Assembly (NCBI GenBank): GCA_002839855.1
Contig: PGYV01000014.1
Location: 1 to 46,012, forward strand
From: Candidatus Goldiibacteriota bacterium HGW-Goldbacteria-1
Lineage (GTDB): Bacteria > Oederibacteriota > PGYV01
Length of the DNA stretch: 46,012 nt
Direction of reading: 5' to 3'
Both the position numbers and the translations under genes were made by a program. This document shows positions 16,417 through 46,012 of the stretch, in pieces. How positions within the stretch are numbered: position 1 is the first letter of the stretch; the number at the start of each line of letters is the position of its first letter. Below the pieces are notes generated by a model. The model searched no databases and was not told the DNA's origin. It worked only from the letters and a program-made list of their open reading frames with translations.

Positions 16417-16857
16417 ATGAAATACGCGCAGGCAAAACAGGGAAGGACGTATCTGGTTAAATTTGAAAATAATGATGACTTTATTGAAGAAGTTAAAAGT
16501 TTTATAAAAAAAGAAAAGATAAAATGCGCGTTTTTTGTATTTCTTGGAGCGGTGGTGAAAGCAAAAATGGCGGCAGGGCCTAAGAAGGCCGTGATACCGC
16601 CGGTGGCAAATATGATATCTATAAATGACGGCTGGGAAGTATTCGGCACCGGTTCGGTTTTTTTAAACAAAAAAGGTGAGCCTCAGGTGCATATTCACGG
16701 CAACTTTGGGAAAGGCGAAAAGTCAAAAATGGGGTGTGTGCGCGCTGACGCGAAAATTTTTAATGTGATAGAGGCAATGGTGACAGAAATAACAGGGGTT
16801 AAAGTTTTTAAGGATATTGACACTGCTACCGGACTGAACATGATGCAGATAAAGTAG
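16417..16857 (+). CDS. PPC (DUF296) domain protein
   Basis: A 146-residue protein consisting of one PPC/DUF296 domain. Diagnostic features are YLVKFENNDDFIEEV near the start, CAFFVFLGAV and the metal-binding-like motif PQVHIHGNFGK with two histidines, then a C-terminal hydrophobic strand region. In plants the domain accompanies AT-hooks; bacterial stand-alone members form trimers and are often called DNA-binding without strong evidence. GGAGG precedes the ATG. It is the last plus-strand gene before a convergent minus-strand block, separated by a 37-base repeat fragment. Confidence 0.85.
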   Translation: MKYAQAKQGRTYLVKFENNDDFIEEVKSFIKKEKIKCAFFVFLGAVVKAKMAAGPKKAVIPPVANMISINDGWEVFGTGSVFLNKKGEPQVHIHGNFGKGEKSKMGCVRADAKIFNVIEAMVTEITGVKVFKDIDTATGLNMMQIK

Positions 16858-16893
16858 ATGCTTAGAGGCTTGGAAGGTTGGATGCTTGGAAAA
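16858..16893. repeat. GATGCTT-type dispersed repeat fragment
   Basis: A short run of variant words (GATGCTTAGAGGC, TTGGAAGG, TTGGATGCTTGG) fills the gap between two convergent stop codons. The same words recur at 17703-17745 and 42600-42640. Confidence 0.75.
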
Positions 16894-16894
16894 A

Positions 16895-17347
16895 CTATTT
16901 GTAAAGAAAAACCGTAAGCCCTTCAATTGAGCCAAGTTTGGATTCTATAAGCGGCTGTATCTGTTCAAATTTCATTTTACCTGCGCCGCAGCCAAGGGCG
17001 GGCATGGCAAGGGTTTTTATTTTATAAAGTTTTATCTGTTTTATAAGGTCATCAAGCCCCGTAAGTATAAGTTCTTCTGATGACGGTTCGCCGGGTTTTA
17101 CGCGCGTGGGAAAATTCAATATGTGCCATGCCCCGAACATATCTCCTTCGGTTGTGGAAAATATTTTACCGGGTTTAATTTTTCCTTCGGCGCAGGCTTT
17201 TTTGTACTTTTCTTCGTTTATCGGAAAACGTTTTGCAAACAGTTTATGCAGCGGGCCGTTGGGCGCGCCGGAACAGCATACGTCTGAAACTATGGCATCC
17301 GAACTGTCGTCGCATATAGTACCTTCGGTTTTTATTATAACCGGCAT
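16895..17347 (-). CDS. Macro-domain protein, DarG-like
   Basis: A 150-residue single macro domain. GAWHILNFPTRVKPGEPSS followed by GLDDLIKQIKLYKIKTLAMPALGCGAGK is the pattern of DarG-type macro domains, which remove ADP-ribose from nucleic acid or protein. The N-terminal substrate loop, usually VNxxGxMGxG, instead reads SDVCCSGAPNGPLHKLFAKRFP, so the binding pocket is altered. No DarT-like ADP-ribosyltransferase gene is next to it; the upstream neighbour is a small PC4-like protein. GGGGAAA precedes the start. It could be a housekeeping ADP-ribose hydrolase, a sensor, or an orphan antitoxin. Confidence 0.75.
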   Translation of the reverse strand: MPVIIKTEGTICDDSSDAIVSDVCCSGAPNGPLHKLFAKRFPINEEKYKKACAEGKIKPGKIFSTTEGDMFGAWHILNFPTRVKPGEPSSEELILTGLDDLIKQIKLYKIKTLAMPALGCGAGKMKFEQIQPLIESKLGSIEGLTVFLYK

Positions 17348-17611: not shown

Positions 17612-17702
17612 GTTTGTCCTCCCTTCAAAGGTGTTGTTGTGCGCATAAACTTTAACACTTATATATTATAATATAGTAATTTTATTATCAAGGGGAATAA
17701 TA

Positions 17703-17905
17703 GAGGCTTGGATGCTTAGAGGTTTGGAGGCTCGGCAGGCTGGAAGAACAAAGATTAGATCTGGATCTGGTAGGCGCACCCTTCAGGGTGCGGCAGTTGA
17801 TTTAGATTTCTAAAATGTTTGTTTTTCTAAACATCCGAACTTCCATACTCCGTCCCTGAATTCTTTAATTTATGGAATATGGGATAAACGGTTATGGGAT
17901 AATTT
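17703..17905. repeat. Composite dispersed repeat (head, hairpin core, tail)
   Basis: Head: GGATGCTTAGAGG-type words at 17703-17745. Core: TAGGCGCACCC at 17771 opens a perfect stem, CGCACCC-TTCA-GGGTGCG (17775-17792), followed by GCAGTTGATTTAGATTT. Tail: CATCCGAACTTCC and CCGTCCCTGAATTC, then AATTTATGGAATATGGGATA and GGTTATGGGATAA. The core matches 45817-45887 and the tail matches 42649-42722. The tail runs into the 3' end of the exonuclease gene. Confidence 0.8.
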
Positions 17906-18410
17906 TTTTAAATATCTTATACAATTTCACCAGCACAATTGCGTCAAGGGCGGCGTATTGTATCATTCCTTCGGTAAGCGGCCTTGTTGTCCAGTCTGCG
18001 CGCTGGTATGATTTGTCCATTACTATGCCAAGCTCCCGAAAACTTACGTCTTTTAAATTGTGGCCGCCTGTTACCTGCCTGCCGCGAATTTTTCTTGAAT
18101 GCGTGCAGGTGTCATAGACGTTATGCAGTTCAATGCCAAAAGGCCTTAATACAGATCGTTCAAAGTTGGCAAAGTGAATGGCTTTTACTATTTTACGGTC
18201 TTCAAATATGTCCTTCAAAGGCGAAATATCATCAATGGCAAGCGGGTCTATAAGCCGGCAGCTTTCCTGCGCGGCAATCTGAATAAGGCATAAAGCCGGC
18301 GGATTTCCAAAAAGCCGCGTTTCGGTATCAACGCCAATTATGGTTTCGCTTTTCAGCTTCTGCACAACTTCCTTTAAACCGTCCTGTGTATCAATAATTT
18401 TTATGTCCAT
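17892..18410 (-). CDS. DEDDy 3'-5' exonuclease domain protein (RNase D-like)
   Basis: A 172-residue stand-alone exonuclease domain. Exo I is GVDTETRLFG (Asp and Glu metal ligands), Exo II is HFANFERSVL, and Exo III is YAALDAIVL, the YxxxD form that defines the DEDDy branch. In Exo II the usual aspartate region carries FE, a variant known in this subgroup. It lacks the HRDC domains of full RNase D. It should trim RNA or DNA 3' ends with two metal ions. The last codons and the stop (Ile-Ile-Pro-stop) lie in a dispersed repeat (GGTTATGGGATAA). Confidence 0.88.
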   Translation of the reverse strand: MDIKIIDTQDGLKEVVQKLKSETIIGVDTETRLFGNPPALCLIQIAAQESCRLIDPLAIDDISPLKDIFEDRKIVKAIHFANFERSVLRPFGIELHNVYDTCTHSRKIRGRQVTGGHNLKDVSFRELGIVMDKSYQRADWTTRPLTEGMIQYAALDAIVLVKLYKIFKKIIP

Positions 18411-36416: not shown

Positions 36417-36440
36417 AAACTGGTAAAGTAATATAATTTT

Positions 36441-36479
36441 AAACGCCCTGTCTGGGGCCAGATCCCGGACAGGGCGTTT
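36441..36479 (+). terminator. Strong GC-rich hairpin, copy 1
   Basis: AAACGCCCTGTCTGGG and CCCGGACAGGGCGTTT form a 16-bp stem with one G-T wobble and a 7-base loop (GCCAGAT), followed by GCTTTTTAATTT. Location after the rhodanese-MauE pair fits a terminator. Confidence 0.8.
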
Positions 36480-36531
36480 GCTTTTTAATTTGTGGAAGAC
36501 ATATTTTGATCCGATTATGGTTGATGTTGAT

Positions 36532-36564
36532 CCTGTCCGGGGCCAGATCCCGGACAGGGCGTTT
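36532..36564. repeat. GC-rich hairpin, copy 2
   Basis: CCTGTCCGGG (36532-36541) pairs perfectly with CCCGGACAGG (36549-36558) across the same GCCAGAT loop, and the right side continues GCGTTT as in copy 1. Only the left flank is different. The two hairpins are 91 bases apart by their loops. Confidence 0.85.
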
Positions 36565-36621
36565 AAGAAACTATAAAATTCTAAATATACCCCTTGAAAC
36601 ACCCCCCTTTTATATGTTATC

Positions 36622-42599: not shown

Positions 42600-42722
42600 G
42601 ATGGTTAGATGCTTGGAAGGTTGGATGCTTAGACGGTTGGTTTCAGCCGAACATCTGTGCATCCGTGCATCTGTCCCTCGGATTTTTTATTTATGGGATA
42701 TGGGATAACAGTTTATGGGATA
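42600..42722. repeat. Composite dispersed repeat upstream of miaB
   Basis: Head words GATGGTTAGATGCTTGG and GGTTGGATGCTTAGACGG run to about 42641. They are followed by tail words ACATCTGTGCATCCGTGC and CTGTCCCTCGGATTTT, then TTTATGGGATATGGGATA and GTTTATGGGATAG. Head and tail match the elements at 16858-16893 and 17703-17905. Confidence 0.8.
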
Positions 42723-42748
42723 GAATTCTGATTTTTAAGGAGTTCGAT

Positions 42749-45762: not shown

Positions 45763-45924
45763 CGGCAGCTCGGCAGCTAAGCAGCTAAGCAGCTGGGCAA
45801 AAGGGTTTGGTATTGGTAGGCGCGCCTTTTAATACCGAGCCTATAATAAAATTGCTCGGTATTATGTGCGGCAGTAGATTTGGATTTGCTCTTACTTCCC
45901 ATCCGCCTAGCTGCCCAGCCGCGG
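45763..45924. repeat. Composite dispersed repeat (CAGCT words, hairpin core, tail)
   Basis: Head: CGGCAGCT and AAGCAGCT words at 45763-45798. Core: TAGGCGCGCC, then AATACCGAGC (45831-45840) and GCTCGGTATT (45854-45863) as a perfect 10-bp stem with 13-base loop, then GTGCGGCAGTAGATTTGG. Tail: CCTAGCTGCCCAGCCGCGG (45906-45924), whose AGCTGCCCAGC is an inverted echo of the head. The core parallels 17771-17809. Confidence 0.8.
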
Positions 45925-45927
45925 TTC

Positions 45928-46012
45928 TACCGGGCTTGGGTATATTTTTTCAGTACGCGCCGCAAATTGGTATTCTTGCATCCAAACAAACTTGAAATTA
46001 CCGGTATGTTAA
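45928..46012. repeat. Dispersed repeat, right window-end copy
   Basis: Same segment as 226-311 (TACCGGGCTTGGGTAT to GGTATGTTAA), same orientation, with about a dozen differences concentrated in the second half. It is cut by the window end and probably continues into a further copy of the 164-bp repeat. Confidence 0.85.

Follow-up and report, generated by a model that had tools for sequence, protein, structure and literature searches.

Word arrays with class-matched inverted arms at gene ends of a Goldbacteria genome

Three intergenic loci at 17703-17905, 42600-42722 and 45763-45924 of the window, the whole stretch of 46,012 nucleotides analysed here (contig C14, 1-46012, of a genome of 2.86 Mb in 18 contigs), raise the question of what kind of element combines iterated short head words, a hairpin core and an inverted tail. 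The sequence-only reading took them for a single composite family without a named counterpart, in which each locus uses its own word and the two arms change together. Direct reading of the sequence confirmed the words, cores and inverted words at all three loci, and the common plan of head words, an optional hairpin core and an inverted tail is seen there. We sampled about 0.85 Mb of the genome of the window (G000), i.e. approximately 30% of it, 0.89 Mb of the congener G001 and 0.37 Mb of the congener G002. Genes were called mechanically by a simple codon-score caller and the intergenic DNA was then analysed; the word classes were first set by eye and tested afterwards.

Word arrays and hairpins in the window

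The first locus opens with a W1-type array, GAGGCTTGGATGCTTAGAGGTTTGGAGGCTCGG (17701-17746, plus strand; words GATGCTTAGAGG), which is the tail arm for the minus-strand gene 17892-18410. It is followed by a GTAG-tagged REP-like hairpin, GGTAGGCGCACCCTTCAGGGTGCGGCAGTTGATTT (17769-17804, plus strand), with the core GTAGGCGC at 17770, by the W1/W3-type words CAGGGACGGAGTATGGAAGTTCGGATGTTTAG (17829-17859, minus strand), which form the inner head of the same gene, and by the period-7 word TATCCCA (17870-17901, minus strand), which abuts and slightly overlaps the 3' end of this gene. At the second locus, a W1 head array with words beginning GATGGTTAGATGCTTGG (42600-42640, plus strand) immediately follows the stop codon of the 41208-42599 gene and precedes a W3 inverted tail (42647-42682, minus strand) and period-7 TATCCCA words that read TATGGGATATGGGATAACAGTTTATGGGATA on the plus strand (42690-42722, minus strand). 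The third locus consists of a W2 head array with words CAGCTAAGCAGCTAAG (45764-45799, plus strand), 4 nt past the stop codon of the 45076-45759 gene, a variant of the GTAG REP-like hairpin with an enlarged loop (TTTAATACCGAGC..GCTCGGTATTA; 45815-45875, plus strand) and a W2 inverted tail (45895-45923, minus strand). The core GTAGGCGC recurs in this variant at 45816, so that it is present in two of the three loci, as had been claimed. A fourth element, missed by the earlier reading, is a W1 array at 16858-16890 (plus strand), which starts right after the stop codon of gene 16417-16857, reaches near that of the convergent gene 16895-17347 and thus fills the gap between the two. No Rfam family was matched at gathering score across the whole window, and a known RNA family was therefore rejected as the identity of these elements. 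The window also contains a MITE-like dispersed repeat of ~250 bp, with pieces at 14-184, 313-483, 221-294 and 45923-46012 and ends resembling GGGGTTGGGTGTGTTTTTTCAGTGCGTGCCGC and its inverse; both ends of the contig seem to fall inside copies of this repeat.

The intergenic DNA exhibits self-similarity at periods 8 and 7. The words fall into the 8-nt classes W1 (GSTTRGAN), W2 (GCTNRGCR) and W3 (GGWCRGAN), which repeat with period 8, and the 7-nt class W5 (ACARSTT); period 7 is confined to W5 and TATCCCA. Additional words outside these classes are TATCCCA itself, one beginning AAGCTATA, and TTCGAATTT. The consensus words of W1 and W2 contain no GGG tracts. In 75 kb of intergenic DNA, 51, 48, 46 and 19 arrays of W1, W2, W3 and W5, respectively, were found at a score of at least 28, as against 0-0.3 per dinucleotide shuffle, and the arrays are thus far in excess of what shuffled intergenic sequence yields. 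Junctions between classes within one array are almost absent, and a gradual conversion of one class to another along an array was rejected on this ground. The claim that each locus uses its own word therefore has to be restated: the genome holds a few classes (about four) that occur genome-wide, and no locus-specific words.

The hairpin core is a matter of its own. GTAG-tagged REPs are characterized by an unpaired GTAG, a palindromic stem, many intergenic copies and inverted dimers (PMC3733652). In the predicted fold of 17766-17802, the GTAG is unpaired and is followed by a 7-bp stem; the pattern GGTAGGCGC occurs 116 times genome-wide as against 24 times for the reversed pattern, and the core has a high intergenic copy number and forms facing pairs or inverted dimers. 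In its form, the GTAGGCGC core fits a GTAG-tagged REP hairpin and is one of several families in the genome, where sister hairpin types (GTAGACGC, GTAGCCGC and GTAGAGACGC) are also present. This likeness is limited to the core and excludes the word arrays. The exact core was also found in the relative MAG USDV_metabat.159, and in the genome studied here the core occurs without arrays as well. The intergenic DNA combines two distinct components in a mosaic, degenerate word arrays and REP-like hairpins, and the proposed single composite family was thus not upheld: the two are independent modules, and the hairpins do not abut stop codons.

Position, polarity and pairing of the arms

The word arrays have a fixed position and polarity. 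Sense arrays start within 5 nt of the stop codon of the upstream gene in 34 of 51 cases in G000, 28 of 44 in G001 and 14 of 20 in G002, whereas the corresponding figures for antisense arrays are 1/68, 0/47 and 0/20, and for REP-like hairpins in the same gaps 0/110, 0/70 and 0/32. Where arrays on opposite strands are neighbours, the order is head followed by inverted tail 49 times and the reverse only once. That stop codons are touched in the sense orientation only is accounted for by an inverted pair whose outer end is fixed. W1 was found after stop codons in other families of the phylum as well, and some arrays include the stop codon itself. In L093 and L094 (another family), near position 1500, the array encloses the stop codon TAG, and the C-terminal residues of the protein are therefore specified by repeat words and are not the same in the two related species.

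The arms match by class, not word for word. Head and tail belong to the same class at 32 of 49 loci, where 20.6 would be expected by chance (p=0.0003); for the tandem loci alone, the agreement (20/36, p=0.10) is not significant. The predicted duplex energy of a class-matched head is -44.9 with its own tail, -42.2 with foreign tails of the same class and -22.7 with tails of other classes, and the own tail does not rank significantly better among same-class tails (mean rank 0.56, p=0.43). The within-locus match that the sequence-only reading had expected thus exists at the level of class, the only level at which a locus has its own word, and the idea that one arm was copied word for word from its partner was rejected on the same grounds. 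Since 28 of 45 heads have no recognised tail, pairing of the arms cannot be a general requirement. Some elements have predicted folds clearly better than those of shuffled sequences, others only mildly so. As regards a comparison with MITEs, which have fixed terminal inverted repeats and target-site duplications, the arms are inverted and the word order is variable, and no clear target duplication was seen in exchanged loci.

These properties are best accounted for, with about an even chance in our estimate, by non-coding cassettes of degenerate tandem words that form an inverted pair with class-matched arms and are exchanged whole at gene-end slots. In such a cassette, G-rich words read inward from an outer end lying flush with the stop codon of the gene, and their reverse complement stands at the opposite end. 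The arms may pair with each other as single strands, either at the mRNA 3' end or in displaced DNA. As any word of a class can pair with any tail word of the same class, pairing would survive the gain and loss of words, and only the class would have to match. REP-like hairpins would be separate passengers of the same slots. Arrays that occur in divergent gaps, where no stop codon is adjacent, count against this explanation, as do the heads without a tail, the elements with folds only mildly better than shuffles and the non-significant class match at tandem loci.

The flush position and the class-matched arms could also arise without any need of function if hairpin-prone words, as purely mutational or selfish repeats, expanded through slippage and template switching up to DNA that cannot be changed, the limits being set by the stop codon and, at the far end, by the next promoter. 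The variable array length and word order, the foreign tails that pair as well as own tails, the common tail-less heads, the arrays extending over a stop codon and the missing link of arrays to terminators all agree with this reading. The words belong to a few discrete classes, common to loci and even to families, which is unlike random local seeds, and the near-absence of class junctions counts against it as well. We regard it as possible, if on the unlikely side.

The cassettes might instead be intrinsic terminators built of words, whose classes are interchangeable because a GC-rich hairpin and a U-tract suffice. The sequence at tail ends is indeed T-rich (48-53% T over the next 5 nt), a T-tract lies within 20 nt in 16 of 68 cases against 8.5 expected, and several tails have the form CCGTCCCTCGG-TTTT. 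However, terminator-like sites are equally common at ends with heads (13/45) and without them (52/167), there is no complementarity between cassettes and ordinary terminator-like sites, an ordinary terminator follows some heads in both species (C1|101630), and most heads lack a tail. A terminator role was considered too weak on these counts to be the whole explanation and is improbable.

Orthologous gene ends and class exchange

The presence of an array at a gene end is conserved between species. Among orthologous ends of G000 and G001, 13 carry an array in both genomes, 6 in one and 72 in neither (p=1e-10); for G000 and G002 the numbers are 9, 6 and 61 (p=2e-7). The array class differs at 6 of the 13 and 6 of the 9 shared ends, respectively, although these counts are small. 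Identity over the first 45 nt is bimodal: where the class is the same, it mostly amounts to 76-100%, and where the class differs, the sequences are no more similar than random pairs. The suggestion that the arms change together was borne out at orthologous loci of the sister species, where both arms were switched jointly between conserved flanks (C4|44982, C1|106899 and the convergent pair C4|317863/318471). The 17703 locus itself was exchanged in G002, in which a compact hairpin with a W1 head and a W3 tail, and then the same flank, come after the ortholog of gene 17892-18410. At 42600-42748, the word element occupies the place of an ABC-ATPase gene, absent there in G000, which in G001 and G002 lies in a tight operon between a tRNA-uracil methyltransferase-like and a MiaB-like radical-SAM gene.

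The cassettes at C4|58948 and C4|308595 hardly differ between species with proteins only 81-82% alike, which speaks against purely mutational expansion. Under the cassette explanation, other copies would serve as the source from which whole cassettes are exchanged, through either recombination or template switching; the vocabulary would shift in each lineage, and a slot would persist since a structured 3' end at that place is tolerated or brings a benefit. The genomes examined yielded no donor copy, no intermediate of an exchange and no responsible enzyme, which counts against this explanation. A further proposal, which we consider unlikely, is that the sequence of gene-end slots is free and only the pairing of the arms is kept; the word classes would then be functionally equal mRNA 3' ends, selection would see the pairing class, and each lineage would exchange its own vocabulary slot by slot.

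The densities per 100 kb differ between the genomes: W1 4.7, W3 4.5 and W2 3.2 in G000, W3 5.4, W1 2.9 and W2 0.7 in G001, and W3 8.2, W1 1.1 and W2 0.5 in G002. The W1 triple word is present in the genus and, within the phylum, also in two other families (4 genomes of f16 and several of f8), and it is absent from all 11 same-order relatives searched; W3 is restricted almost wholly to the genus. These same-order relatives live without the words, which counts against the cassette explanation as well.

The words might be written or moved by a dedicated enzyme, either a reverse transcriptase, telomerase-like or of another kind, or a Y1 (REP-type) transposase acting at stop-adjacent sites. The repeats are degenerate, 7-8 nt long and G-rich, as this would predict, and the genome contains two Y1 transposase genes. 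No RVT_1 reverse transcriptase was found in G000, G001, G002 or any of the four f16 genomes that carry the words, which excludes a reverse-transcriptase or telomerase-like origin at the RVT_1 level in the genus and f16. Neither words nor GTAG REPs flank either Y1 gene in the stretches read, and mobilisation of the words by the resident transposases was rejected because the flanks do not match. A dedicated enzyme is thus very improbable. REPs without a RAYT exist. One Y1 gene (L079:1340-2500) is bounded by its own terminal inverted repeats, ACACCGTGCCTTGACTCATGACATT, and the other (L078:1000-2000) has next to it a CCTGTCTGGGGTCAGACCCCAGACAGG palindrome, to which the repeat at window 36439-36566 is related.

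The viral contigs L182 (7467-7490) and L183 (5253-5276) carry one perfect (GCTTGGAT)4 run. Spread of the words by phage was rejected, the viral run being unlike a post-stop cassette.

Known repeat systems and significance

The statement that no named family has such a plan did not stand, since close precedents exist in GTAG REPs, GGGAATC/GGGGAYT heptamers and the repeat classes of trnL P6b; a literature search in general terms yielded none beyond the systems named in this text. A REP-flanked Y1 transposase (RAYT), which can accompany GTAG-tagged REPs, was not found in the stretches read here. The GGGAATC and GGGGA(C/T)T heptamers of Xanthomonas and Nostoc, with one 7-nt G4-forming word per genome and a G-quadruplex of about four units for the GGGAATC type (PMC4692102), resemble the arrays in being dispersed, intergenic, short G-rich tandem words that can occur as inverted pairs and have neighbouring genes of every kind, with G-rich coding-strand words close behind stop codons and the other strand upstream of genes. 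They differ in that several degenerate 8-nt classes are present here, which start mostly 0-5 nt from the stop codon, have class-matched inverted tails and replace each other at orthologous ends. In the P6b stem of the Nostoc trnL group I intron, two classes of degenerate 7-nt repeats, Class I (TDNGATT) and Class II (NNTGAGT), replace each other at one site with similar folds (PMC4476775). This is analogous to our findings in that degenerate short repeats stand on both sides of a stem and classes are replaced wholesale in both arms, but the words described here are 8 nt long and occupy many gene ends instead of one intron site, the window giving no Rfam match to a group I intron. The TAACTGA heptamers of Beggiatoaceae, where a single heptamer lies mostly just upstream of start codons and has hardly any inverted partner (PMC4679880), are likewise short direct repeats, spread between genes across the genome, that keep a fixed position with respect to them and show a patchy phylogeny; the arrays in our genomes are post-stop, of several classes and provided with inverted tails. 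Compared with the GGGAATC heptamers and trnL P6b as described in those papers, what is new is that a single genome carries several 8-nt classes, exchangeable with one another, at the ends of many of its genes.

These findings join post-stop G-rich heptamers, P6b repeat classes and cyanobacterial tandem repeats into one pattern. The orthologous gene ends of three species reveal that the site and the word class evolve separately. The process by which bacteria exchange whole repeat cassettes thereby becomes testable, as does the question of whether a structured element right after the stop codon serves the gene.
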